Assembly (NCBI RefSeq): GCF_003473485.1
Contig: NC_053048.1
Span: 23,801,255-23,865,254, forward strand
Source: Medicago truncatula
Lineage: Eukaryota > Streptophyta > Magnoliopsida > Fabales > Fabaceae
DNA: 64,000 bases
Direction: 5' to 3'
The notes under the pieces are model-generated. The model did no database searches. It was not told where the DNA came from and saw only the letters and a program-made list of their open reading frames with translations. This document shows positions 32,525 through 64,000 of the stretch, in pieces. The translations under genes were made by a program, and so were the position numbers. The first letter of the stretch is position 1; each line of letters opens with the position of its first letter.

Positions 32525-32930
32525 GAGAACTTCTATGGTACACTCACAAAGTGAGATGTACCGGTACTCTCGCTTCATGATTTTACAAATTAACGATCAT
32601 TTTTCATGTAAGAAATAGCTATTTTTCAATATTTATATTTTATAGAACATCATTTCGTAAGAAAAACATCATTTCATTGTTTATAAGAATCATAGTAATT
32701 TTTTTACATATTATCGTAAAAAATAATCAATGTTCTTAACCATGAGTGATAAAAATTCAAAAAAAATAAATTTTATTTCGTTGACACTTTTGATGAATAA
32801 GATTTAATTATTATAATTATAAGTGATAAAAAAACAATATTTTTCTTCAAAAACAACTCATTTAACTATTAATTTAAAGAATAAGTATACCGATACACTC
32901 AAATATATTAGGTGTACCATAAAATTTGCC
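32525..32930. mobile_element. Mutator-type MITE, 406 bp, 9-bp TSD
   Basis: The perfect duplication TTATATCAT lies at 32516-32524 and 32931-32939. The left end reads GAGAACTTCTATGGTACAC and the reverse-complemented right end GGCAAATTTTATGGTACACC. Both are followed by a GTACCGGTA or GTATCGGTA palindrome. A single end of the same family occurs at 46265-46316. Confidence 0.87.
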
Positions 32931-40434: not shown

Positions 40435-41214
40435 GGGTTAATTAAGTTTTTGATCCCTATAAAAATAAATCACACTTTTTAGTCCCTACAAAATTTTCCG
40501 TTAGTGTTTCTAGTCCCTGTTAAATTAAAATTTGTTTAATTATGCTTAAAATTTTAAATTTTTTAACGATTTTTTACATACTTGTTTAAAACATTATAAA
40601 AGGTTCCGCCACAATAAATTAGCTCAAAATTTTATTTTTAGGTCCAAATTTTCGTTTGTTTTATCTTGAATTTTTCGCGTTTTAAAAAAATTATATTTAA
40701 TTCATTACATGTTAGAAAATTCTAATTTTTTATAAAAGAGATTATTATAATGTTCTTAACATGTCTGTTAAAAATCATTTAAAAATATAAAAGTTTAAGT
40801 ATAATTAAACAAATTTCAATTTAATAGGGATCAACACATACTTTTAGTCCTTGTAAAATTAAAATTTCCTTAATTGTGCTTAAACTTTTAAATTTGTAAC
40901 ATATTTTTCACATACTTACTGAGAATATTATACAAAGTTCCTCCGCAAAAAAAAAAACTTAAAATTTTATTATTAGGTCCAAATTTTCATTAATATAATC
41001 TTGAAAATTTGGCTTTTAGAAAAATTCATATTTAATTCATTACATGTTAAAAAACTAAATTTTTTTATAAAAGAGTGTCTTACGATGTTATGAACATGTA
41101 TATAAAAAATATTTCAAAAATTTAGAATTTTAAACATAATTAAACAAATTTAATTTAACAGGGACTAAAAACAAAACTGCAGATATTGATAGGGATCAAA
41201 AACTTAATTAACCC
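40435..41214. mobile_element. Mutator-type element, 780 bp, 9-bp TSD, internally duplicated
   Basis: Flanked by AAAAATAAA at 40426-40434 and 41215-41223. The ends are GGGTTAATTAAGTTTTTGAT on both sides (right end reverse-complemented), continuing CCCTAT. The sequence from about 40500 to 40830 is repeated in diverged form at about 40840-41160 (for example aatttaattcattacatgtta in both). No coding frame. Confidence 0.88.
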
Positions 41215-42538
41215 AAAAATAAATTGTTTGTGATTAACTAATTCATTAAAAAAATAGATTAATTAATTCTAGCATAAATTCTGTTAATTTTTTTTAATTC
41301 TAGCGTAAATAAATATTTCTGAATAATAGATTAATACTACTTATCTCTTATTTCTCAGAAAAATTACTACTCCATGCATTTTTCTTTTATAGCAACCGAT
41401 CATTTTTTCTGCGTGACTAAGGCTTAGGTGAATTTTTTAAGATGCTTTTTATATGGTTCTTGATGTTCTTAACTTCACAATTTTATCAAGATGGTTACAA
41501 TCACAAAAAATGTGTGTATTTTAAATTAGAAATCATAAGAAAAACATCTAAAAAATGACTTGGTTGGGGGGGGGGGGGGGGTGCTGGTGGCGTGGTGGTT
41601 GAACCAAAGACTTAAATATTGAACATATGCAACTGAAAATATTAGTTGGAGTAAGAGTAATTGACCTCTTTCTGTTTTTATTTTTTTGTCTAATAGCTTT
41701 GTGGTTAGAAATCTACTCTTCAATGACAAGTTTGAATTACCCCATTTAAAGGAAGACAATTGTTGTAGTTGGAATGCACCTTACCCTAACTAATGACGAT
41801 TTTATGGCGGAATCAAACTTTTGATGATATCTTAAGTTGATCTAAGCAACTTCATCCGCATACCAAACGTGTTCCACCATCGTTGTGTCTCTGAGCTTCT
41901 CCCCCGTTGAATTGCGTATGAACGTTGATCCACCCGGCCATTGTTTTAAATCTACACAATAAGAAACAAAAAACAATCAATAAAAAACTTATTCAAACAT
42001 TTTGTCAAACACTTGATGTGCACGTAATACATTGACTCTTAAATTCATAAAAATAACCCTAAAATTATAAATCATATAGTCTTCTTACTAAAATAAAAAA
42101 AAAATTAGTCATGTAAATCTACTCTAAAACTAACATCTATCCTAAAAATTAATTATAACATGTAAAACTAACATCTATCCTAAAAAAATTAGTCTTCTTA
42201 AAAGTTTATTTGTTTTTTTCATTATACGTTTCACTTCATCAAAATACTAAAAATCTTGAAGGAAAAAAAATCATATCTATCACACTAAACTTATTCACAC
42301 CTTGTAGAGTTTGTAGGTGTTCAAATTTTTGAGAGAGTATTCTTTCTTTCAAAAAAAAGGGAGTACTGCTTATAGAGTTTAGAGAGAAAGTATTTTGGCT
42401 AGAGTATTTTCTTCCACTAAAGTCTCAAAGGATGTGATTGAAACTATTTATAGAAATATTGTGCTAATATTTTCCAAAATGACATAAATAAATCATGACT
42501 TTATAATATAGGTTAAAGGTTTTTATTGATTGGATAGC
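41215..42538. other. Intergenic with a 16-base G run
   Basis: AT-rich sequence apart from an uninterrupted G16 at 41566-41581. At about 41800-41950 the minus strand reads MAGWINVHTQFNGGEAQRHN, a short unassigned frame. Nothing else was recognised. Confidence 0.35.
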
Positions 42539-42680
42539 ACATTCATTTGCTTTTTGAATGCTTTTCATGTTGGCATGCATATGTCTTTCAACTTCAATCT
42601 CAGAGATTCACATTCATTTGCTTTTTGAATGCTTTTCATGTTGGCATGCATATGTCTTTCAACTTCAATCTCAGAGATTC
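42539..42680. repeat. Perfect 71-bp tandem duplication
   Basis: The 71-base unit beginning acattcatttgctttttgaa and ending atctcagagattc occurs twice head to tail without a difference (42539-42609 and 42610-42680). The identity implies a recent duplication, or an assembly repeat. It lies just outside the left cluster of paired palindromes. Confidence 0.9.
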
Positions 42681-42818
42681 CATAAATTGGATGGTCCCTC
42701 ACTCAACCAATTTTTTAACAAACAGTACCCCACATGTGTTGTCCTATTGTCATTGGTAATATATATTAAAAACTTTAGATAAAAACAAAAAATAAAAAAA
42801 CATTGACCTGAAATTTAT

Positions 42819-42926
42819 GCACGGTCGTGCGTTCATATGACACGATCGTGCATATATTCACTGGAATCAAACGTTATAACTCCTGGTTATTAAACACGAT
42901 CGTGCATTAAAATGACACGATCGTGC
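42819..42926. promoter_or_regulatory. Left cluster of paired 12-bp near-palindromes (4 sites)
   Basis: Sites GCACGGTCGTGC (42819-42830), ACACGATCGTGC (42840-42851), ACACGATCGTGC (42894-42905) and ACACGATCGTGC (42915-42926) form two pairs. Within each pair the starts are exactly 21 bp apart, two turns of B-DNA. The intervening bases differ, so the spacing is conserved rather than the sequence. The same architecture recurs at 45943-46199 and 49797-49881. Confidence 0.85.
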
Positions 42927-42967
42927 CAAACATCAATGGTCCCCAAAATGAGAATTCCTGCGAAAAT

Positions 42968-43290
42968 AAAAAAGAATAATAAAAAAAAGGTTTTTGGTTG
43001 TGGGAATCAAACCCAACCCCTCCACCTCCTAAGGACATATTCGTTACCAATTAGCCACATGGAGCGCGTTCGTTAAGTTTTCAACTTCACCTGTCTATAT
43101 CCTTACAAAAGGAGACATCCTGTCAAAACGAAAAAGAATAACAAAAAAAAAGGAGGGGTTTTCGGTGGTGGGAATCAAACCCAAACCCTCCACCTCCTAA
43201 GGACACATTCTTTACCAATTAGCCACATGGGGCGCGTTCGATAATTTTTCAACTTCACATGTATATAACTTTTACTATGGCATCATTTAA
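42968..43290 (-). repeat. Two tandem tRNA-like (SINE-type) units, about 168-bp period
   Basis: Read on the minus strand, each unit contains TGTGGCTAATTGGTAA (A-box-like) and, about 30 bases later, GGGTTTGATTCCCAC (B-box-like), at tRNA-like spacing. The two copies share ggaatcaaaccc at 43003 and 43171, a 168-bp offset, and are roughly 85-90 percent alike by eye. The unit may be a tRNA-derived SINE or a tRNA-gene relic. The clover-leaf is too degraded to assign an isotype. Confidence 0.6.
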
Positions 43291-43294
43291 TATT

Positions 43295-43735
43295 GGGGTT
43301 TGCTAGAACACACCCACTTGTTTTTGTTAGAAGGTGTGTTATAGCAACATACACCTTAAGGTGTATTTATTACTCCTCCGTCCCTAATTATAAGATCCTT
43401 TTGAGAATTTTTTTTGTCCCTTTTTATAAGACCCCTTTGTTATTTCCAACTACATTAATTATTTCTTTACATACATGCCCCTATTTATTATACATCTTTT
43501 TCTTCAATCAACAATAAATAACATGTTGAAAACATAAATTAACCTTCTTTCTTAAAGGATAAAATTGTAAAAACAATAGTGATTACAAACAACCTTAATA
43601 CAAATATCCACTATCTTAATTCCCGTGATTTTGGCAAAATGGTCTTATATATAGGGACGGAGGGAGTAACTTTTTAGTTATAACTTGCTAAAATACTCCC
43701 ACATAAAAACGGTTGGGTGTGTTCTAGCAAATTCC
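43295..43735. mobile_element. Mutator-type MITE, 9-bp TSD, carrying a nested Stowaway
   Basis: Perfect duplication TTTAATATT at 43286-43294 and 43736-43744. The left end is GGGGTTTGCTAGAACACACC and the reverse-complemented right end GGAATTTGCTAGAACACACC. Without the nested insertion the element would be about 145 bp. Confidence 0.88.
43373..43666. mobile_element. Stowaway MITE nested in the Mutator-type MITE
   Basis: The left end is CTCCTCCGTCCCTAATTATA and the reverse-complemented right end CTCCCTCCGTCCCTATATAT. TA target duplications flank it (43371-43372 and 43667-43668). These are canonical Stowaway (Tc1/Mariner-type) termini. Confidence 0.88.
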
Positions 43736-44525
43736 TTTAATATTAATTTCATTTATAACATTTAACATTATAAATGAAATTATTGAATAAGAATCCTTTA
43801 TATTTAAACTTAATTAAGTTCATTTTTAATCATACCTAATCTCATTAAATATAATCAATTATAACAAAATAATTTAATCTGTTAATCATTAATGTTCTAA
43901 TCATTATATCATTAATGATTTCTCAACAACACACAAAACCACACCTTTCCCCCAAATCAATTTCACGTGTTCATTATTCTCAACCTTCTTGTTATTCTAC
44001 TTCATTCTTCTTCATCCAAGCACTAGCACTAGCATTCTCAACCTGTCCAGATCTACACTAAGTATAAGGTAATTAACCTCCATTTCTTCTATCTCTTTTA
44101 CTTAATTTCATGCATGCATTTGGATGCTATTTATTGAATGTTGAAATAGCTAAATTATTATATTCATAATGATTGTTGGCTTATTTTTGTTATAGTTATT
44201 CTTAAGAGTATGAATTAGTTTCTGATTTGTTGGGTGTTCTTTGTCCTGCATGTTTGTTAAATGGAAAAGGGGCTTCTCCTTAATTGCTATTAGGAAATGT
44301 AAAATACCACTATTTTGGTTTTTTTGGTTGCTTATCAATCTTGTGTTAGTATGTAAATGAACCCATAACCTTTACCATAGTCAAAATATAAGTGGGTTTT
44401 TAATTGTTGTTACTAATACTAATATATTTGTACAATTAATCCATGAAAATTGTTACTACTACCCTTTAGAATTTAACTAGTAATTTCGGTTTTTTTGTTT
44501 TCAACAGGAAGAGAAATTTTGAAAA

Positions 44526-45255
44526 ATGGCTTCTAAGGGAAAGGGTGTTCATGTTGGCGGCACTTCTTGCGGAACGAAGAAACAGGGTAAACTAAATGAG
44601 AGGGGACTTATTCTAAACAAATCTGAGAGGGAAAGGTACAAAATGCTTTTGAACAGAGACATTGTACCAAATAGGTATCCCGATTCAGCAACTTTACAGG
44701 CATTGGGTATAGACGACAATGTCACAACATTAATTAGTAACATTGGCTGGAAAGATTTCGTGGGGGAGACGCACTTCACCTTCGAAACGAGTACATTTGA
44801 ATTTTTGAGTACAGTCAATTTTAATCATGATACACACAATACCACACACCCAAACCACACTGTTTCATTTAGTTTGGGCAACGTGGAATACAACATGTCC
44901 CTCACCGAATTTAGTGACATAATGGGATTTGAAAGCACGGGGGTCATTCATGTATCCCGTAACCATGATGTCAGGCACCGAGGATATGACAAACATGGGT
45001 TTTGGTTTCAAATAACTGGCCGAAAACGTTATGAATGTAAAACTGCCAAGGCCAGCATGATACAAAACTCAGTTTTCCGATACTTGCATAGAGTAATGGC
45101 ATGCACCATTTTCGGTAGGCCGGAAACTGCAACAGTGAGGTCTGATGAGCTATTCCTTCTATGGGCTATGGTTCATAAATGTCCTGTAAACACGGGCTAT
45201 TACTTATTAGACCATCTGACATATGTGGCGGAACAACCCAAAGGTAAGATAGTGG

Positions 45256-45294
<39 letters not shown>

Positions 45295-45771
45295 GAAAGA
45301 GGAATTGATGGAAACTATACCATTGATATTGATTTATGTAAACAGATACATATGATAAGGGATCTAGATGGGAACAATATGAATTTTATATTGTTGGTAT
45401 TCGATGAAGATTCAATCTTGTTGCCATATACATCGAGAACTGACGTAACAATTCCGGAAAATTGGCTTTATATAGATTTAGATTCCCGGGTACCTAAAGA
45501 GGGGCCTGCCAAAGACGAAGAAATGGGTGATTACCGGGAGGATAAACAACCAACGGAGGGTTCAAAAGATGACAATGATTGGCGTCAAAGGATGGAGGCG
45601 AAGGTTGACAGAACGTATGAGGAGGTTGCACTCGTCAAACATATGCTTGCAGCAACAATGCGGCAACTCAACATCCAATATCCCCCCCCCCCCCCCCCCC
45701 CCCCCCCCCAAGTCCATGATAATAAAGTTACACCTATTCAACTTTATTGCTTTGTTTTGGCTGCATTTTGA
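44526..45771 (+). mobile_element. Athila-ORF1-like / putative plant transposon protein gene
   Basis: An open stretch from 44526 begins MASKGKGVHVGG and a Lys/Arg-rich N-terminus. A globular domain follows with RYPDSATLQALGIDDNV, ISNIGWKDFV, EFLSTVNF, VEYNMSLTEFSDIMGF and SDELFLLWAMVHKCPV. This is the pattern of proteins annotated in legumes as Arabidopsis retrotransposon ORF1 or putative plant transposon protein. A second open stretch (45352-45771) holds ENWLYIDLDSRVP and a coiled-coil-like tail. A leader donor-like AAG/GTAATT near 44069 and a pyrimidine-rich acceptor ending TTTTCAACAG near 44508 precede the ATG, giving a gene-like layout. No LTRs, pol or gag were found nearby, so membership of an LTR element is not established. 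The 36-kDa-scale protein may instead belong to the palindrome-flanked element proposed here. Confidence 0.6.
45257..45293 (+). repeat. Uninterrupted run of 37 G
   Basis: A G37 homopolymer begins 13 bases after a donor-like GTAAGA, between the two open stretches of the ORF1-like gene. A C28 run at 45682-45709 lies near the 3' end of the same gene. Such runs are hard to sequence, so the exact lengths are uncertain. Confidence 0.9.
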
Positions 45772-45942
45772 AAGTACTCCTTTAAGAGCTTTTCAAGTTT
45801 CCATAGGGTATGTTATGAACAATGATCCGATTATAATTATGGTGTAAATTATATTTGATCTTTAACTTGTTTGCATGTTAACATAACACATTGTTTTTTT
45901 TGTACTAATGATGGTTGTTGAAACTGGATAATGCCAGAAAAT

Positions 45943-46199
45943 ACATGACCGTGCCAAATTCACGCACGACCGTGCACGTAAGCAATACAGGAAAAAACCC
46001 TACCTGATAGATACACACGACCGTGCGTTTAACATGCACGGGCGTGGGTTTTTAAAAAGACATTTACATAACAAATTCCAGTAAGTTACGGCACGACCGT
46101 TTCAACTAATAGCACGGTCGTGCGTAACATCAATTATACTTCAAACCCAGGAATAACACACTTTAAGCACGACCTTTTCAAACCATAGCATAGTCGTGT
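45943..46199. promoter_or_regulatory. Central cluster of paired 12-bp near-palindromes (8 sites)
   Basis: Four pairs start at 45943/45964, 46015/46036, 46091/46112 and 46167/46188. Every pair has a 21-bp offset, and successive pairs are 72, 76 and 76 bp apart. Sites range from perfect (GCACGACCGTGC at 45964, GCACGGTCGTGC at 46112) to decayed (GCACGACCTTTT at 46167). The cluster lies between the 3' ends of the convergent ORF1-like and GRF genes. Confidence 0.85.
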
Positions 46200-46264
46200 T
46201 ACTACAAATCCTTCCTTTTAAAATTAATTAACAAAATACTTATTTCATTCAGTACAATACAAAA

Positions 46265-46316
46265 TTGGCAAATTCTATGGTACACCAATGAATTTGGGTG
46301 TATCGGTACACCCAAA
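46265..46316. repeat. Single MITE end of the GGCAAATT..ATGGTACAC family
   Basis: The run ggcaaattctatggtacacc followed by gtgtatcggtacaccc matches the reverse-complemented right terminus of the MITE at 32525-32930. No opposite end is evident nearby. The coiled-coil frame of the GRF gene reads into it on the minus strand. Confidence 0.6.
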
Positions 46317-46496
46317 TGAACTATTGGACCATCCTACCTCTTCCTTCAGCAAAGATACCTCATCATCTAGACTTTCTTTTACTAAAAACAACTCCTCCAT
46401 GGCAATCTTCTTACAAATGGCAATTTCCAGATCCACATTTTTTTTCACTTCAAGCAAATTTTCTTTGTTTTCCTCGTCGGCCAAATGCACTTGAGC

Positions 46497-46907
46497 TTAT
46501 AAGATTTTACTCATTTTTAAAATCTCCATCCCAAATTCCTTCTTCACAGTGTCGATCTCTTCCTCCATTACTTTTTTCATCTCAGCCAACTTACCTTCAA
46601 GTTCTTTCTTCATAGCATCAAACTTCAAAGCTTGATCAGCTAGTGCACCATCCAATTCATCATCAATCTCCATCATTCTACTATCCACCTTTTGTGTAGT
46701 TTCTGTTTCACATCCAATAGGTTCACACCATAGAAAAAATCCACAATTTTCTTCTGGTTTCTCGTGCTTGCAACGGTAAAACAACCGATTACGATTTTCC
46801 TCAGTCATTGCGACCTTAATAACAGCTACATTTCGACATAAGCAAAACTTCTTGGAATATCTAATCCAACCACCTTTGTTGCTTGATGAGGCCTTTGATC
46901 CATTCAT
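46497..46907 (-). CDS. GRF-type zinc-finger protein with coiled coil
   Basis: A 136-residue minus-strand frame. Residues 17-64 are a GRF-type zinc finger (RYSKKFCLCRNVAVIKV ... CGFFLWCEP) with likely ligands C22, C24, C46 and C55. Residues about 75-130 form a heptad-rich coiled coil (DGALADQALKFDAMKKELEG). A further coiled-coil stretch lies just downstream on the same strand at 46490-46275. GRF fingers bind single-stranded nucleic acid in animal APE2, TOP3A and NEIL3; the many short plant copies are of unknown function and often lie in repeats. The locus has a promoter-like layout: TATATAAAA at 47426-47418, a leader ending at a good donor (CAAC/GTAAGTGT, 47255) and an acceptor TTATCAG at 46914 just before the ATG. 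It converges with the ORF1-like gene and is bracketed by the paired palindromes. Confidence 0.7.
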   Translation of the reverse strand: MNGSKASSSNKGGWIRYSKKFCLCRNVAVIKVAMTEENRNRLFYRCKHEKPEENCGFFLWCEPIGCETETTQKVDSRMMEIDDELDGALADQALKFDAMKKELEGKLAEMKKVMEEEIDTVKKEFGMEILKMSKIL

Positions 46908-47416
46908 GGTTCACTGATAAAATCACATTTTCAGTTATCGGAATAACAAACCATCTCAAAAATAATTCAATTTCAGAAATAAGTATTATAATTAAAATTA
47001 AAGAACTTCATTATCAAACGCCATATTCATTACAAAACAACACATTAAAATAAACTGCAATTTAGAAAATTTACCCTTTTGTTTAGATTTGGGTTAAGGC
47101 AAAAATTCAATTGACACCAGATCAACAACATATATTCAAAGTAAACTTATGTAATTGAAATTGAAAGTGAAATTGAAATCGAAGAATCACCCAAATCGAA
47201 ATTGAAAAACAACTTGTATAACCTATAGAAATTGTGATTAAAAGGTACACTTACGTTGAAGAGAAGAACCTGCTGAAGCTCGGATGAAGAGAAGAAGTTG
47301 GTGAAGCTCGCGTGAGTAGCTTCAAGAAGAAGGTCAGGAAAGTTGAAGAAGAAGGTCTGGTAGTGGTTGTGGTTGGTGCAAAATCGTAAATAAAATAAAT
47401 GGAAAGTGGTTGAGGT

Positions 47417-47426
47417 ATTTTATATA
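47417..47426 (-). promoter_or_regulatory. TATA box of the GRF zinc-finger gene
   Basis: The minus strand reads GGTCTATATAAAATACC. About 30 bases downstream begins a pyrimidine-rich leader (CTTCTTCTTCAACTTTCC) that ends at the donor near 47255. The spacing fits a pol II core promoter. Confidence 0.5.
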
Positions 47427-47639
47427 GACCCTAACCCTTCTCATCTGTTTGGATTGTTAAAGTATAAGGTTGATGAAATAAATGGAAAGAAATTTATGTA
47501 AAAGAATGAAATAAGATCATTAAATGTTTGTTTGGTAGTTGATGGAAAAAAGGTTTATATGCTATGTTTGTTTATAAAGAATGTTTGGTTGAATAGAAAT
47601 TGGATAGATGTAAATATATTTTTTTACTTAAAATATTAA

Positions 47640-49500
47640 AATTGTGACTAATAAAACTATCTAACAACTAATCAAGCTTACATCTATAACCCTGATAACA
47701 ATTTTCTTATAACTAAACTAATCCAAAGATTTCAAAACGACTTGTCAAATGCACAACTGTTACCCTTACTTAAAGAATATTGGAATCAAAGTACTTTGAT
47801 GAACGTATTCAAAGTACTTGGATAACCGTCCAATCACTAATCAAACTATTGTTATCGACTAACTAACCTTACAAATCTATATCTACTAAAAACCCTAAAC
47901 CCTAATTATAATATTCTTCCACCTAAACTACTTCGAAGATTTCAAAACGAATAATCAAACTCAAAATTCTTGACCTAACTGAAAGAATATTGGAGTCAAA
48001 CTACCTGCATGAACGTTCAATGAGAAAACAAGCTTGCAGATCTAACTCTAATCACAAGATTCTTTGATCTAAACTACTTCAAAGATGTTAGAATAACTAA
48101 TCAAACTGAAATAATCTTGCAGCGAAAGTACTTGGAACATTCAATGACTAATCAATATCTTTACTGACTAATCAAACTCTTTACCGACTAATCAAGCTTA
48201 CAACTCTCAACCTAATAACAAGATTCTTCAACATAAACAACTTCCAAGATGTCATAACAACTAATCAAATTCACAACTCTTACTATAACTGAAAGATCTT
48301 GTAGACAAAGTACTTGGATGAATGTTCAATGACTAATCAAATTTTTCACCGACTAATCAAATTAACAACTCTCAACCTAATGACATGATTCTTTGTCCTA
48401 AACTATTTCCAAGATGTCATAACGACTGATTAAACTATTTCCAAGATGTCATTTTAAACTATTTCCTCCAAGTAAACTAGTTACTAAGTTGACTAGTTTA
48501 TGACGGGATACTTCGTCCAATCGACTTAGCTCCCGGAACTCGATATGAGAAATATCAAGTTTATATCTCCTTTTAGGTCTTAGAAGGTCATTTTGAACGG
48601 TCGGATTGATTGTACTTGTTGCTGTTCAGGTGATAGGCACGTTTAGGTCCTCCGAGTAAACTAGTTACTAAGTTGACTAGTTTATGACGGGATACTTCGT
48701 CCAATCGACTTAGCTCCCGGAACTCGATATGAGAAATATCAAGTTTATATCTCCTTTAAGGTCATTTTGAACGGTCGAATTGATTGTACTTGTTGCTGTT
48801 CAGGTGATAGGCACGTTTAGGTCATCCGAGTAAACTAGTTACTAAGTTGACTAGTTTATGACGCGATACTTCGTCCAATCGACTTAGCTCCGAAAACTCG
48901 ATATGAGAAATTCAAGTTTATATCTCCTTTAAGGTCTTAGAAGGTCATTTTGAACGGTCGGATTGATTGTACTTGTTGCTGTTCGGGTGATAGGCACGTT
49001 TAGGTCCTCCGAGTAAACTAGTTACTAACTTGACTACTTTATGAGGGGATAGTTCGTCCGATCAAGCTTGTAACTCTAACCCTAATGACAAGATTCTTCG
49101 ACCTAGACTACTTCTAAGATTTCAAAACGACTGATCAAACTCACAACTCTTACCCTAACTTAAAGAATATTGGAGTCAAAGTACGTTCATGAACGGCCAA
49201 CGACTAATCAAAGACTTTATCGATTAATCAGGCTTACAAGTATCACCCTAATGACAAATCTAACCCTAATTCCAAGATTCATTCACCTAAACTACTTCAA
49301 AGACTTCAAAACGACTGATCAAACTCACAACTCTAGCCTTAACTTCAAGAATCTTCAAGTCAGACTAATTGGATGAACGATCACTGACTAATCAAAGTCT
49401 TTATCGACTAACCAAGCCTTCAACTATAACCCTAATGACAAGTTTATTTGACCTAAACTAATTCAAAGATTTCAAAACGACTGATCACACTCTCGTCACC
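47640..49500. repeat. Degenerate tandem-repeat array, roughly 180-200 bp unit
   Basis: The phrases ctaatcaagcttacaactct, gatttcaaaacgactgatcaa, cttaaagaatattggagtcaa and ttggatgaacgttcaatgac recur in order many times from 47640 to 48470 and again from 49070 to 49500. They define a diverged tandem unit. A different, much more uniform array (48472-49075) interrupts it. No coding content. Confidence 0.8.
48472..49075. repeat. Tandem array, about 184-bp unit, three copies plus a partial
   Basis: Copies begin gtaaactagttactaagttg at 48472, 48656 and 48830, and a diverged one begins at 49013, so the periods are 184, 174 and 183 bp. The 174-bp unit lacks a 10-base ggtcttagaa segment. Shared phrases include gacgggatacttcgtccaat and ggtgataggcacgtttaggt. 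The copies are close to identical, so this array is younger than the flanking degenerate one. Confidence 0.9.
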
Positions 49501-49796
49501 AAAATAACCTAAACTTGACATTTTATATTTATTAATTAATTAATCTATGTAAACGAGGATTATCTAAAATGGTCATTTTAATTTAATTATGTAAGTCTAA
49601 TTAAAACAATAAAACAAAATCCAATTATTAACTAAATTTTCTCAGTTTACAACAAAAACTTCTAATAAATTTTTATTCTTTTTTTATTTAATGTATATTT
49701 GATTTATAAATATGATTTATCGTATATTTAATTTATATTATGAATTAAGAAAAATTGTAGAATTTTCTAATACCATTAATCCCAATACAAATCGAC

Positions 49797-49881
49797 ACAC
49801 GGTCGTGCACTACATCGACACGGTCGTGCTCGACCCTTGTTCTATTTGACCCGGTCGTGCTTAATGTTGGCGCGGTCGTGC
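49797..49881. promoter_or_regulatory. Right cluster of paired 12-bp near-palindromes (4 sites)
   Basis: Sites ACACGGTCGTGC (49797-49808), ACACGGTCGTGC (49818-49829), ACCCGGTCGTGC (49849-49860) and GCGCGGTCGTGC (49870-49881) form two pairs, each with a 21-bp offset, the pairs being 52 bp apart. The left cluster has a similar compact layout (75 bp between pairs). Confidence 0.85.
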
Positions 49882-50760
49882 CTGCGTTATGCACCTGATC
49901 CTGCTAAGCCCAATATAAAGCCCAATAGAATAATTGCCAAAAAAAACCATTTAAATAATCAAATTTAATCCACGCGTGGGACCCGCCTGCACAAAAACAA
50001 CTTGATGGCAGCAGGTCAACTTTCCAGTTTTTCCAACAAATCCTGACCATTCGAATAAAATAATAATAAATCAATGGTTCAGATTTGCTTTCAGGTTGAA
50101 AATGCACAATTTGTGCATGGTGCACAAATTGTATGTTTGTCCATACCAAAAGGTACCGTAATGCAATGTCACTACTATCTAAGTGAAGCTCACATGACCC
50201 CTTTTTTTTTCTTCTTCTTTTTGTCTTAGGTTAACTTTGTCTATTTAAATATATGACTTTACTTTTGTCAAAAAAAAAAAAAAAAAAGTATAACTCTACA
50301 CTTGATTTCCCTTACGTGGTCACACTCAATTTTACTTTGTTCGTACATTTTCATTTTTTTATGCATTTTTCACGGTTTTATTAGTTTTTAATAATATGTT
50401 ATCCTTAGAAACTGAAATAAATTTTGTCATAGAATTTTTACATCCATCCAAAATTTTGCCTTTTCAAAAGAATATAGACAAGCAACTGTCTGGAAATTGC
50501 TTGATGGAAACTAAAATTCAGATATAGAAGTAGACAAATTGTTTTTGAGCTATCCCATTTAAGTTAAGAATATAAGTATTCATATATCAAACAAGTTGAG
50601 CAATAAATATAACAAAATTGTTTTTACAAGTTAATAAAAAAGAAGGAAAAAAAAATAGTCATGTGCAAATTTAAGAAGCACAAATGCAGCATGTAAGCCA
50701 AATTGAAGGCTCTCGAGCCAATTGAATCATCTCCAGTTAATTTCCAAGAAACTTGTTGAT
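49882..50760. other. Intergenic; A-run that may be a retroposon tail
   Basis: A palindrome, tgcacaatttgtgcatggtg then cacaaattgt, lies near 50103-50130. The sequence tttacttttgtc followed by an A17-18 run near 50270-50287 resembles a LINE or SINE 3' end, but no body could be recognised. No gene. Confidence 0.35.
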
Positions 50761-53411
50761 CTACAAATTTATTCTGAGATCAACTCGGGAACCCTGTTTT
50801 AAATGTGAAAGTACAGAAAAATTTGACTTGTTACATACATCGGTGTGCTTTAAAATACCCGAAAGCAATATTTGTTGATCTTTACTCAGCCCAAAGAACC
50901 ACTTCCTCAAAGTTTCAACATTGTCTAAAACAGACTTAGAATATGTTGAAATATAGATGTTAGTATGAAAAAGGGTTTCAAGACCAAGAGGAAGAAGGAC
51001 AAAGAGTGTATTGGCAGTGGTAATTTGAAGACGAAAGCCTGCTTTCCTGGAAGATATGCGGCATAAATATGCAAACAAATTACGTCTCAGTTTCTCAACT
51101 CCCTGATCTTCATATCCACCCCGTTATCAACTCCAATCCTGAAATTTATAAAAATTTACCATACTGTTATAACGTAAACAAAAAGGCATGTGAAAGCATC
51201 ATTGTGTGTTAAATCAGATGATATTTTTTGTGGACATGTATCTATAGCCTGCTGCCTTGTTCATATATTGTACTTGCAGTGAGTACAATAATTGTATCTA
51301 GGGTTTAGACTGTTTATGAGATGCCTTGGGAATGATCCCAAGAGGGATATTTATAGCCTTTTTGTGGGCTTGCTTAGTGTGACTTTAGCCCCACGTGAGC
51401 TGGTTTTTAGTCTTTTAGCCTGGCTCTAGATGCTTCCAGAAGCCCGTTAAGGCGGCGCCTAGGCTTCGGGGACCCTTCTGGAGGGCGCCTTAGCCTTTTC
51501 TGGAGGGCTCCCAGGTCCTTCTGGAGGGGTCCTGTACCCTTAGGAATATATTGATGGTCCATATATGTATGATGTATATCTGACTCGAGCTCAACTAGTA
51601 ATACTGGACTACATATGCCTCACAAAAAAAGGTTGGTCATGTTTCTAAAAGAAACGAAGGTACTATCAGCAGAATTCCATAGAACAAGCATATTTTAACT
51701 CAATTCTCATCGTTGAGGAGATATATCATATGATAGAAATATAGTTTTTACATTATTGATTTTTTGTATAACCGGTCATTTAGATACCAAGTATGTCACT
51801 TGACAAAATGGTCATCACACAGCTGTAAATGACTATCAATCTTCAGTAAAGATGATCCAAAGATCACATATTGCCCCTCATGTGAAATTGTTCCATTATT
51901 TAAAAATAAAACTTTACTTCATTAAAGGATATTGTATCATTAAAGGGTATTGTAGGAATTATAGCATTGGATATGATAGAGTAAGTTAAATTTTGCTTAT
52001 AATTGAGACTACAAAACGTGATTTTTTGTTGCTTCTATTCAAAACCAGAACCAGAGGGAGTAATTGTTCATTGCTTTCAGAAGATTCTTAAGATTACCAT
52101 TTTCCCAAGGCAAAATAACCTTTCAGTGTTACTGCTGAGACGTTTATAAACCCAAAAGGTCCAATAATTTACAACACAACCAACTTCACAATCACTAATA
52201 CATGACATAGATAGCTAGTCCTATACCTTAATCATGTAAGTATGGCAGAGTGAGACATCGGCTTCTAAAGATAAGATCATGATGCTTATTTCAAAAATAG
52301 AATCCACAATCCTAGCTCATATGTGTTTGTGTATGTGCAAGCTTTTGACATGAGTGGATAGAAAGTAGATAAAACAACTAAAACATTATATACAAATGAA
52401 AACAATTCATCAGTGAAACCAACCTTTGTTTGGTCTTGTATACTTCCTGAAACAGGCAAAAAGGATTCATCGAGTACATCAAAGTGACGTAGAAGCTGAA
52501 TGAAACCAATCTTTCGACAACCTAATTTGTGATGTAAAATACTGTAACGACTTGCTTCTAACTTGTATTTTAGCTTGTTATGCCTTGCTCTTAACTTTTC
52601 AACGTTCAGATTGTTTTTCAAATGTTTCACTTTAGAACATTGACTACTTTTAGTTTTCTTTCTGATGTCAGTAGCCATTTCAGTTTGATTTCTCAGGGAT
52701 GAGAGCTCATGCATCTTCCGCTTCAAATCCTCAACTGTCCTCTCAACTTCTTCTAGCTGCTGAGACATCTGATCAGCGTGACATTTCTCTTCCACAAACT
52801 TGTTCCAGTTATCTTTTGCAAACGCCTTCTGCTCCTCTAATTTAACCATTTCAATGGCTTTGTGCTTTTCAACCTCCTCCAACTTTTTGTTAGCTTTTGC
52901 CATTCCTAACCCGGCTTTTCTTTTCGCTGCAAATAACCAGCGCTTTTTTAAATCAGACCTTCTGGTCACCACTTTAAATGCAGACGTCTCAGATTTCAAT
53001 TTTTGTTTTGCTTCGCTAAATTGTTTCTCCAATTGACCAATCTGAACCATGTACCCCTCAGCCTTCTCCACTTTAATTTTTGCAATTTGCGCCCTTATTC
53101 TTTTATTGTTCCAGTAACTTCCATGTTTCGGCAACTCTCTTCCTCTTAGAATCAGCCCTTCTCTTTTCACTCCCCAAAAGCTCCTTCGATCTACATAATT
53201 CCTTGTCCCTCTCAGCTATACAAGCTCGTAAACCTAATACCTTCGCATTCTCGTTCCCATCCCGAGCATCCCTGTTACATCCCCAATGAGCATAATTAAT
53301 AGTCTGAAACTTGAAGCTACTGAGTCCATTATTCATCGCCGGCACCCCAGGATTAAATTTCAATAAGGATGCAGACATGCAGTATATCTTAATGAAGACT
53401 TGCTTCAACAA
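50761..53411 (-). pseudogene. Coiled-coil gene resembling EMB1611/MEE22, fragmentary
   Basis: Minus-strand exon-like pieces share a long coiled-coil character. The piece at 53411-53103 ends IAERDKELCRSKELLGSEKR and RADSKRKRVAETWKLL. The main stretch at about 53110-52425 (IRAQIAKIKVEKAEGY ... HADQMSQQLEEVERTVEDLK) ends SGSIQDQTK at a donor-like AAG/GTTGGT. A piece at 51110-50761 reads NVETLRKWFFGLSKDQQILL. The order and wording recall the large plant protein EMB1611/MEE22, needed for embryo development and shoot meristem maintenance (about 1240 aa in Arabidopsis). That is recalled resemblance, not a search result. The first two pieces are in different frames with no intron signal between them, so a frameshift near 53105 is likely, and much of the full protein is absent. 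A partial pseudogene is the best call; unrelated coiled-coil proteins remain possible. Confidence 0.45.
51250..51620. mobile_element. Possible solo LTR (GC-rich insertion)
   Basis: A compact GC-rich island with a TATA-like tatttatagcc near 51348 and repeated ttctggagggcgcc-type units near 51475-51535 interrupts AT-rich sequence between exon-like pieces of the coiled-coil gene. This resembles an LTR of a plant retroelement. The ends and a target duplication were not found, so the call is tentative. Confidence 0.3.
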
Positions 53412-54325: not shown

Positions 54326-56564
54326 TTACTCCCTTTGATACTTTTTTACAAAACAATTTATCAATATTGACCAAGTGATTTCGTTAGGTATGAAACCATT
54401 ACTAACACCTTTGAATAAAAGCAGACACGCATCATTAAACAAATCCTCATAGCAGAAGCTACTGATCAATGTGTTATACGTAACAGCATTAGGGCACATT
54501 CCTTCGGTTTGTAGCCTGTTAAAAAGGTTCAAAGCCTCCTGAATACGACCATTTTTGCAAAGACCATTAATCAAGCTGTTATAAGTGACTATATCTGGTG
54601 TCAAACCACGATGGATCATATCTCGAAGAAACCGAAGAGCGTCATTTACTTTTCCAATACTACAGAAGGAATTGCTCAGAATGTTACAAGAGTTAATACT
54701 AGGAAAAATCCCTTTCCCAAACATTTCCTCAATCAATCCCAAACCTTTCTCTATTGCCCCAGTTTTACAGAGAGCTTTAATAAGGCCATTATAAGTAATA
54801 TTATCAAGGGGACACCCTCGAAATAGCATTTCATTAACAAGCTTATACGCTTGTTGAATCGAATCTCCCCTAAGAAATGCGTGAATTAACGTATTGTATG
54901 TTATAGTGTTAGCAATAACACCCTCCAAGAACATGTCATGATACAAACCCAACGTTTCTTCCATCTTATCATTCTTGCATAGTCCAGTTTTACAGAGAGC
55001 TTTAATAAGGCCATTATAAGTAATATTATCAAGGGGAGACCCTCGAAATAGCATTTCATTAACAAGCTTATACGCTTGTTGAATCGAATCTCCCCTAAGA
55101 AATGCGTGAATTAACGTATTGTATGTTATAGTGTTAGCAATAACACCCTCCAAGAACGTGTCATGATACAAACCCAACGCTTCTTCCATCTTATCATTCT
55201 TGCATAGTCCATATATTAATGAATTGAATGTGTAAATGTCAGGTTTACATCCTTTGCTAGACATTTCACCATACATCTGGAAGGCATCTTGAATCTTTCC
55301 ATCTTTACAGAAACCATTTATCAATATAGTGTATGTGATCACATTTGGCTCAAAACCTTTCTCTACCATCTCATTTAAGAATTCAAGAGCAGAGACCAAA
55401 TACCCCTTCTTGCAAAGTCCATCGATCATTATGTTAAACATGAAGGCATCAGGCTCAAAGCCGGCAATTACCATGTTTTGGTACAGAAGATCCTTGGCTT
55501 CTTCAAACCTTCCACTAGCAACATATCCATTAATCAATGTATTATAAAGCACAGTATTAGGGTTAGGAATCTTGCTTAACAAAACCCTCGCTTCATCAAC
55601 TTGCCCCATCCTACACAAACCGGGCATCAAACAACCATAAATTAGAGCATCAGTGGTGAAACCATGAAGCAGCATTCGATCAAGCAACTTCGCTGCCTCA
55701 TGAATCCGACCGGCCTTACAAAGTCCATGAATAACATCATTGAAAGTCTGAACATCCGGTTCACAACCCAACCCATCAAAAACATTTCCTCCAGTAACTT
55801 CATCGCTTCATTCACTCTGTTGTTTTCAGAAAGCGCGTGAATCAATGTTTGGTAAATAATCGAATTCGGAACACAACCATGCTTTGTCATATCCCTTAAA
55901 AGCGAACACGCCGAATCAACCCGTTAACCATACAAAACGCTTTCATAACAATACCAAACGTATGAACAGTCGGCGAAATACCTCTACTCAACATATCATA
56001 AAAAACATTCGGCGCCACCTTAGGACAATTTCCAGAAACAAGAATCTCCAATACAACATTATATGATTTAAACGTCGGTTCAAAACAATAAACACCCCAC
56101 ATATCCAACAAAAGCCTAGTTGCTTGACCCGGTAACCCCGCCTTCCCATAATACCTCAAAATCAAAATAAAAAGTGATTCTTTAAAAACACAACCTTCAT
56201 CTTTCATTTGTTTCAACAACTTATCAATCATCTTAAACTCACCAACATGACCAAGCTTATCAATTAAAAGATAATAAACATGAAAAGAGTGGATATACCC
56301 TCTTTGCAAACCAGCTTTTTCAAATAAGTCCATTGAAGTGGGAAAATCAAGAGGGAGTTCCAACAATTTACAAAGCTGTGATGGGGTTATTGGATTGAGT
56401 GATCTTTGAAGGTGTTTGAGATCATAGGGTTTGAACAAATTTTCCCATTCTTTGCCATTGTTTTTTACAAGTGATGTTGTTGTGCATTGTGAAAAAGATT
56501 GGATTTTTATGCAAAGTAGAATAGTTCTACTTAGCCCAATTGAAGATTTGAATGTTTTCAACAT
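54326..56564 (-). pseudogene. P-class PPR protein gene (At5g64320-like) with two frameshifts
   Basis: Three minus-strand frames together cover one P-class PPR protein: 56564-55896 (MLKTFKSS to MKAFCMVNG), 55890 to about 55780 (MTKHGCVPNSIIYQTLIHAL), and 55771-54326 (MGCEPDVQTFNDVIHGLCKA to the end). The combined text follows Arabidopsis At5g64320 (MTL1, reported as needed for mitochondrial nad7 translation) closely, including SYNVVLEILVSGNC and the final EITWSILINCFVKK. The Arg/Ser-rich start fits a mitochondrial presequence. The gene is intronless, as usual. Near 55919-55921 one G appears missing from a run (AACGGG before TTGATTCG); at about 55773-55782 GGGTT is duplicated. The two changes do not restore the frame. 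The last frame also carries an in-frame 225-bp tandem duplication. Either this is a recent pseudogene or the single-base change is a sequencing error and only the 5-bp change is real. Confidence 0.9.
54761..55210 (-). repeat. 225-bp in-frame tandem duplication within the PPR pseudogene
   Basis: 54761-54985 and 54986-55210 differ at only three positions (gacaccc/gagaccc, aacatg/aacgtg, acgttt/acgctt). Each encodes 75 residues, two PPR motifs plus five residues. The join reads ALCKTGLCKNDKMEE, which puts the second copy five residues out of the 35-residue PPR phase. Confidence 0.95.
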
Positions 56565-62475: not shown

Positions 62476-63459
62476 ATATAAATAAGATAAAAGACTGCTG
62501 AAATAACTTTTCTAAACCAAAACATCATTCAACAAAAAACAACATAAAGAATTATAAAAATAATCTTTATTAACAAAAAAAAGGAGAGATAAATTAAATT
62601 CCACAACATACAATTCATGAAACATTGATTCTTAAAATATAACAAAAAAAGAAAAATTGGATAAAATACCAACAAAAAATGACAGAAATGAATGAAAGTA
62701 AGAACGTCTTTCTCGAATTTGTCAATTTTGAGAAGGTAGACCTAGAATGAAAAGAGACACATAGAAGAAAAATAATCAGTGCAAAACAGAGATATACAAC
62801 AAGGTTCAAGAGAGTTTCCCTCAGTAAAAAAAAAAAAAAAAAGATCGTGGAGAGTTGCAAGAATTTGAGTATCTTTCAAGTTCCTAATAATAATATAGAA
62901 GACAAGCTTATTTTTTAGATGACCTACTTCGATTATTGGTTATCTTCTATTTTTTAGATGACCTCATTTTATGTCTTGATTAGTTTCTATTATGATATGA
63001 AGAGCCACACGAAAGAATGATGGGGAGAGAGATAAAGAGAGATAGATAGATAGATATAGAGAGAGATCCAAATATAAGTAAATATAAAAATAATATATTC
63101 ATAGTTTTTTTTTTTTTTTTTTTATATTGACAATACGTAGGACAGACTATTATTTATTTTCTGAGAAAAGCAACCAAATGTCCATCCAATTGAAGTTTTA
63201 TTTTCTCCATGACTCATGCCTCATATAGTAGCTTAAGGAATTCTGCCAACATTAAAATAAAAAAATATCAATATATTATACATTATAAAAACTAAACGAA
63301 TGAAAATGATAAAGATTATACTTATATCGTATTAACTATTTCTGACAAATTAAAAAAGATTTTGTCGGTTCTTTGATGGTATATATATTATGAAAAATAC
63401 ATCTTAGTTTCAGAAGGGAAAAAAAATGAAAGTGTTTTTATTATTAGTATTATTAAATA
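62476..63459. other. Intergenic
   Basis: A-runs near 62825-62843, a (GATA)n/GAGA run near 63025-63070 and a T-run near 63105-63123. No gene was recognised. Confidence 0.4.
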
Positions 63460-63745
63460 GGGTTAATAGTGTTTTTCACCCTTGTAATATATGTCATTTT
63501 CGATTTTCGCCCCTATAAAATTTTTGGTTTGATTTGCACCCTCGTGAAATTTTTATTTTCTGGAAAACACCCCTAATAGGCCATTTTCAGAATTTTTTTT
63601 CAAGAAATTTTGGTTTTTGAATGGCCTATTAAGGGTGTTTTCCGGAAAATAAAAATTTTACGAGGGTGAAAATCAAACCGAAAATTTTATAGAGGTAAAA
63701 ACCGGAAATGACATATATTACAGGGGTGAAAAACACTATTAACCC
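63460..63745. mobile_element. Mutator-type MITE, 286 bp, almost fully palindromic, 9-bp TSD
   Basis: Perfect duplication TATTAAATA at 63451-63459 and 63746-63754. Both ends read GGGTTAATAGTGTTTTTCAC (right end reverse-complemented). The arms match over nearly their whole length of about 130 bp, leaving only a short loop, so a transcript would form a long near-perfect hairpin. The sequence from 63755 to 64000 is AT-rich without a feature. Confidence 0.92.
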
Positions 63746-64000
63746 TATTAAATATTACATGAAATATTTTATTTGAATGTGTATATAGATAAGTGATGAT
63801 ATAAAAAAAAAATTAACTTTAAAACAAATTTTTTTAATTTTAATTGAGAATATTATATATGGTTGTGTATTTTCTTATATTATATTTTCTTTCATATTAA
63901 ACAAAAATGATTCCAAACTTTAATTCATTTAATTAAATTTTAAAATTTCCTATAATAAATATTTACTTATCATTAAAAAAATTCTTTAAAAGTAGACTTA

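Follow-up and report, generated by a model that had tools for sequence, protein, structure and literature searches.

What purpose, if any, is served by the paired 12-bp near-palindromes that lie in three clusters around an ATHILA ORF-1-like gene and a GRF zinc-finger gene in Medicago truncatula? The sites occur in a 64,000-nucleotide stretch of contig NC_053048.1 (RefSeq assembly GCF_003473485.1, positions 23,801,255 to 23,865,254, forward strand), which was analysed as a whole and is termed the window here; all positions below are window positions. The explanation favoured, to which we give about an even chance, is that the sites form a decayed array of paired targets, at a transposon-derived locus, of a protein that binds DNA sequence-specifically, probably as a dimer, and that acts or formerly acted for this locus. 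This protein was probably encoded by the transposon itself.

The sixteen sites reported in a preliminary description of this DNA, arranged as eight pairs in three clusters, were all recovered at the same starts when the window sequence was re-read. The offset between the two sites of a pair was exactly 21 bp (a 9-bp spacer) in eight of eight pairs and, as had also been claimed, it was kept by decayed pairs such as pair 6. The comparison with randomized sequence that the description had proposed was run, and no pair at 21 bp was present in 200 windows simulated with a first-order Markov model. Nine of the sixteen sites matched RCACGRYCGTGY exactly, four had one mismatch and three had two. Over the whole window, 33 strand-matches with at most two mismatches to the consensus first noted were counted, where 3.63 were expected, and none of 100 shuffles reached 33. 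With a weight matrix that represents two sites at a 21-bp offset and was built from these same sixteen sites, the eight pairs scored from 44.6 down to 22.9 and the next independent candidate in 64 kb scored 3.8; a score of 18.7 at 49828 was a re-use of the first site of pair 8. The paired sites are real and are unlikely to have arisen by chance.

CACG-N2-CGTG occurred ten times in the window, each time within one of the sixteen sites, and CACG and CGTG separated by gaps of 0, 1 or 3 to 8 gave four matches in total, one of which (45961) overlapped a cluster-2 site. The arms CACG-NN-CGTG are symmetric, but the central dinucleotide was mostly not self-complementary (GT in seven sites, AC in five, AT in three and GG in one). 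Intact CACG or CGTG half-sites numbered 26 of 32. No description of this motif pair in plant transposons was found in the open literature searched, which consisted mostly of titles and abstract openings. The positions of the pairs and of the gene frames are listed in Table 1.

Table 1. Paired sites and gene frames at the locus, in window positions.
Feature	Position	Strand	Score or match
Pair 1, cluster 1: GCACGGTCGTGC-N9-ACACGATCGTGC	42819..42851		Pair score 44.6
Pair 2, cluster 1: ACACGATCGTGC at both sites	42894..42926		Pair score 42.2
Pair 3, cluster 2	45943..45975		Pair score 40.5
Pair 4, cluster 2	46015..46047		Pair score 38.1
Pair 5, cluster 2: first site altered in its inner half	46091..46123		Pair score 40.5
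Pair 6, cluster 2: the most decayed pair, inner half altered in each site, spacing retained	46167..46199		Pair score 22.9
Pair 7, cluster 3	49797..49829		Pair score 43.3
Pair 8, cluster 3	49849..49881		Pair score 37.8
ATHILA ORF-1-family open frame, 243 aa, between clusters 1 and 2	44526..45254	+	PF03078, E 7.7e-26, protein 35-212 to profile 49-225 of 458
Probable continuation (3' coding part) of the ATHILA ORF-1-family gene, 3' of a 37-base G run; stop 171 bp before cluster 2	45301..45771	+	Open frame
GRF zinc-finger and coiled-coil-like gene, open for 136 aa up to an in-frame stop, beyond cluster 2, convergent with the ATHILA ORF-1 gene	46500..46907	-	PF06839, E 8.1e-10

Under the favoured explanation, each 12-bp site contains two opposed CACG half-sites (CACG-NN-CGTG), and two such sites placed two helical turns apart make up one unit with four half-sites. 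These units, which return at intervals of about 75 bp in the non-coding DNA flanking the ATHILA ORF-1-like gene on either side, would have arisen by tandem duplication and then have been maintained through selection for protein binding. Dimers might bind on one face of the DNA, as the preliminary description, which also envisaged cooperative binding, had suggested from the two-turn spacing. They might regulate the element or counteract its silencing, by analogy with the target arrays of VANC or TnpA.

The history of the units bears directly on how the constant spacing is to be read. Pair starts followed one another at 75 bp in cluster 1, at 72, 76 and 76 bp in cluster 2 and at 52 bp in cluster 3. 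Since four of these five intervals fall at 72-76 bp, the pairs may well descend from a tandem unit, in which case the eight spacings do not represent independent events. An ancestral tandem unit of about 75 bp that was duplicated is likely, and the spacing was probably inherited from it. Linker lengths between pairs varied (42, 39, 43, 43 and 19 bp) while the spacer stayed constant. Identity of the 24 core letters was 0.78 within clusters (8 comparisons) and 0.74 between clusters (20 comparisons). The corresponding values for the spacer were 0.36 and 0.28, and flank identity was 0.26-0.30, with a background of 0.28. When all eight units were compared, column conservation outside the cores was not significant, the fraction of the null at or above the observed value being 0.44 for the left flank, 0.29 for the spacer and 0.24 for the right flank. 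From this pattern, the cores were probably kept by selection or gene conversion while their surroundings turned over.

It is possible, if somewhat unlikely, that descent alone accounts for the spacing, that is, that a tandem unit of about 75 bp containing the palindromic pair formed an old minisatellite whose copies were scattered within one element and have no function. The intervals of 75, 72, 76 and 76 bp are what such an origin predicts, 42815-42885 and 42890-42960 share 70% ungapped identity, and some units show a weak likeness in their flanks. Tandem-repeat arrays are also frequent in the largest non-chromovirus gypsy elements (PMC6317226; this and the other articles cited here are drawn on in excerpt). 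Against a minisatellite, Tandem Repeats Finder at score 30 returned 19 rows in total, none of them over the three clusters, and the flanks stood at background while the cores were 74-78% identical, so that no head-to-tail array of similar full units was present. Methylated plant repeats are expected to lose their CpGs first, and the CpG-rich cores of a minisatellite in methylated DNA should have decayed fastest. The sites nevertheless keep 29 of 32 CpGs, in a region whose observed/expected CpG ratio without the sites is 0.68. Because CpGs are expected to vanish first in methylated repeats, this retention fits constraint on the cores.

A structural role for the pairs is very unlikely. In this explanation each 33-bp pair would form a hairpin or cruciform with a 12-bp stem and a 9-base loop, in RNA or single-stranded DNA, as a source of small RNA or a structure used in transposition. 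All eight pairs can fold as hairpins, five of them with z below -3, and in pairs 5 and 6 the inner halves have decayed while the complementary outer halves remain; stem-loops of repeated motifs have been described at the ends of a soybean CACTA element (PMC2613891). Hairpin folding is, however, trivial for any two near-palindromes, and for three of the eight pairs the fold was hardly more stable than that of shuffled sequence (z -1.3 to -1.9). No excess covariation was detected across the eight units, with 83.3% standard pairs compared with 84.2% after shuffling of partners, and 446 and 440 of 500 shuffles reached the observed values. Pairing within single sites gave no covariation either (79.2% standard pairs, 83.4% when shuffled), and an Rfam scan of 42000-50700 found no family at the gathering threshold. 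The lack of covariation for both the hairpin and the within-site pairing indicates that fixed letters were kept and not base-pairing, which favours protein recognition over structure. Conservation of the two half-sites was nearly the same (59 of 64 letters in one and 61 of 64 in the other, counted over the columns), as expected for a symmetric protein.

A slim chance is likewise given to exploitation by the element of a host regulator that recognises CACG half-sites (NAC-, FAR1- or G-box-type). In its favour, CACG is a core for several plant factors and a two-turn spacing suits cooperative binding; against it, the literal strings CACGNNCGTG and CACGRYCGTG were present in none of the listed papers of the open literature searched. 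Some plant gypsy elements, those of cotton for example, seem to contain GC-rich palindromes with CACG/CGTG arms.

All three clusters were outside both recognised gene frames; clusters 1 and 2 flank the ATHILA ORF-1-like gene, and cluster 2 is located between the two genes. The Pfam scan covered 18 open reading frame (ORF) pieces. Thirteen of them were locus frames, from a total of 38 frames of at least 55 aa in 41200-51200. No transposase family, MURA-type included, was recognised in the 18 pieces and no gag or pol domain in the 13 locus frames; two RVT_3 (RNase H-like) frames were far from the locus, at 21.8 and 60.3 kb. The frame at 45301..45771 probably belongs to the same gene as the one at 44526..45254, though no family was above the cut-off when it was scanned. 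Runs of 37 G (45257-45293) and 28 C (45682-45709) bracket 388 bp of open frame in this gene, and may reflect an intron or low complexity, a replication oddity or an assembly artefact; a further run of 16 G is present at 41566-41581. The best match of the ATHILA ORF-1-like piece among PDB sequences was only at E 0.59, and no relatives were confirmed in IMG/VR (18 pattern stretches) or in GTDB genomes (20 pattern stretches) with a single-protein query, which reaches close relatives only. The GRF protein resembles the GRF region of Endonuclease 8-like 3 (chain 7omk_A, E 1.9e-4); its model has a long, confident helix at about residues 81-130, the finger itself having a predicted local distance difference test (pLDDT) score below 50.

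Of the two local products, the ATHILA ORF-1-like protein is the stronger candidate for reading the sites, given the position of its gene between clusters 1 and 2; GRF fingers, for their part, are not known as sequence-specific binders of double-stranded DNA.

Several observations weigh against a maintained array of protein-binding sites. In clusters 1 and 2 alone (six units), conservation of the right flank was borderline, with a null fraction of 0.06 (left flank 0.29, spacer 0.12). Among 56 flank comparisons, that between 42819 and 46015 (0.47 identity) was clearly above the 99th percentile of 0.434, and that between 42819 and 42894 was at this percentile (0.434). In addition, CCTG was noticed post hoc 8 bp before the pairs at 42819, 42894 and 46015; together with the period of about 75 bp, this common CCTG is a pointer to shared ancestry of the units. 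The observed/expected CpG ratio differed from place to place, being 0.14 upstream of cluster 1 and reaching 0.95 in nearby tandem repeats, which makes CpG retention a weak argument in places. The state of pairs 5 and 6, described above, is a further difficulty, and cluster 3 is 2.9 kb from the nearest recognised gene. The structure model of the ATHILA ORF-1-like piece, made from the single sequence, was unusable (mean pLDDT 33.8). The locus may be a relic, since the GRF frame contains an in-frame stop with more open frame beyond it and homopolymer runs are present in the ATHILA ORF-1-like gene. Finally, within this single locus selection is not cleanly separable from common descent or gene conversion among the units.

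The limits of the element were sought in several ways. Self-comparison of the window gave no direct repeat bracketing the locus that could represent long terminal repeats (LTRs). A search for 20-bp terminal inverted repeats, with the left end in 41200-42999 and the right end in 46900-51599, gave 26 candidates that were AT-rich or otherwise unconvincing by eye, two of them with an 8-bp duplication. When the outer ends of the region were compared, the best inverted match scored 37 against a null maximum of 35, in an AT-rich stretch, and the best direct match 35 against 37. For CACTA ends with a 3-bp duplication, the best of 143 end pairs matched at 10 of 13 positions without a duplication, and the sole pair with a 3-bp match at 5 of 13. 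An end resembling those of Mutator-like or miniature inverted-repeat transposable elements (MITEs) was present at 46267 and matched the ends of a MITE at about 32525-32930; no right-end partner for it was found. The ends of the latter MITE (32525-32930) resemble AAATTCTATGGTACACC, and its 9-bp duplication is TTATATCAT. The MITE-like sequence at 46267 suggests that the GRF gene may lie in a separate Mutator-like insertion, starting between the GRF gene and cluster 2.

The sequence CAATACAAA was present at 46255-46263 and again at 49783-49791, the latter just before cluster 3. If it were a 9-bp target duplication, of the kind made by VANDAL (Mutator-like) elements, clusters 2 and 3 would once have been a single array that was split by the putative Mutator-like insertion. 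This possibility was not relied upon: the putative ends share no common inverted repeat, the start of the MITE-like end is shifted by 3 bp, and the scan, made post hoc, gave at least four 9/9 matches over seven registers, CAATACAAA included.

The surroundings of the clusters are rich in other repeats. A perfect 71-bp tandem duplication (42538-42680) is located just upstream of cluster 1. Adjoining this cluster are two tandem copies, 42961-43104 and 43129-43272, which are 85% alike and appear tRNA-like by eye on the minus strand, as the head of a short interspersed nuclear element would; ARAGORN called no tRNA in either. Between cluster 1 and the ATHILA ORF-1-like gene, an insertion at 43295-43735 has inverted ends and a 9-bp duplication, TTTAATATT, and contains a second MITE-like repeat with ends CTCCGTCCC. 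The DNA between the GRF gene and cluster 3 contains long degenerate tandem repeats (47645-49492) with spacings of about 165-210 bp, within which is an inner 174-bp array at 48464-49063 with 91% matches. Further away are a recent 228-bp tandem duplication (54759-55211, 98.7% identical) in a gene that its translation suggested by eye to be PPR-type, and, near the end of the window (63447-63758), 312 bp that match their own reverse complement at 85% identity.

The exact pair pattern was also looked for in viral and prokaryotic collections. The one match in IMG/VR (L001) was a repeat inside the coding sequence of a long ORF; the contig appeared phage-like by eye, and the match was judged unrelated. 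In GTDB there were 37 loci, of GC content 0.61-0.75, 36 with one pair and one (L006) with two overlapping pairs. These were read as chance occurrences in GC-rich bacterial DNA; in the locus that was inspected (L019), the pair was inside a gene that by eye was bacterial and GST-like.

A more specific proposal is that the locus represents a transposon-encoded regulatory or anti-silencing system distinct from that of the VANDAL transposons; its reader would be a protein of the ATHILA ORF-1 family, and its targets the palindromes paired at two helical turns. We consider this quite unlikely. If true, the enigmatic extra ORFs of plant retroelements, the function of which has been called 'rather speculative' (PMC6317226), would be sequence-specific DNA-binding regulators of the elements' own non-coding DNA. 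With such a gene as neighbour, a well-defined 33-bp target would allow a direct binding test for extra-ORF function, and sites at fixed spacing would suggest that VANC-like motif-array systems arose more than once.

Three known systems invite comparison. The preliminary description had put forward the VANDAL elements and their VANC proteins as a possible parallel; this is a functional analogy only, and the case for membership is weak, as the motifs differ and the scanned ORF pieces gave no MURA-type transposase. In Arabidopsis, the binding targets of VANC proteins are short motifs in non-coding DNA with many tandem repeats, and these proteins cause methylation to be lost (PMC5735166, PMC10398659). 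These motifs are clustered in transposon non-coding DNA, arise with tandem repeats and lie beside element-encoded accessory genes (PMC5735166, PMC10398659), and a short motif clustered in non-coding DNA is also what the present locus contains. The VANC motifs YAGTATTAY and AGTTGTCC/AGTTGTAC (9 and 8 bp, for VANC21 and VANC6) are, however, not palindromic, no pairs at fixed spacing are described and the terms 'palindrom-' and 'spacing' are absent from the excerpts of PMC5735166. The genes at our locus match PF03078 and PF06839, and no transposase or VANC-like gene was recognised among the Pfam families matched by the scanned frames.

CACTA elements with TnpA or TNP1 (soybean Tgmt*, maize En/Spm) also have arrays of short motifs, recognised or presumed to be recognised by an element-encoded protein, and the TnpA-type subterminal motifs of the soybean element can pair into stem-loops; the maize En-1 motif is likewise 12 bp (PMC2613891). 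In contrast, the Tgmt* motifs are subterminal, at most 159 bp from one CACTA end and 732 bp from the other (PMC2613891), whereas CACTA ends with a 3-bp duplication were not found among the end pairs at our locus and one cluster is between the two genes. The Athila and Retand retroelements have extra ORFs amid long, often repeat-rich non-coding DNA (PMC6317226, PMC11963269). PF03078, the family of the protein encoded here, is an extra ORF in 16% of Athila elements (PMC6317226), and Retand has antisense ORFs, tandem repeats and a TRP28 domain predicted to bind DNA (PMC11963269). Unlike these elements, our locus had no gag, pol or LTR recognised in the scanned frames and the self-comparison, and paired palindromes are not mentioned in the excerpts of either article; nor is this pair described in those of PMC10342631. 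The view favoured here, by analogy, is that the locus would work in the manner of the VANC, TnpA-like and Retand systems without necessarily belonging to any of them.

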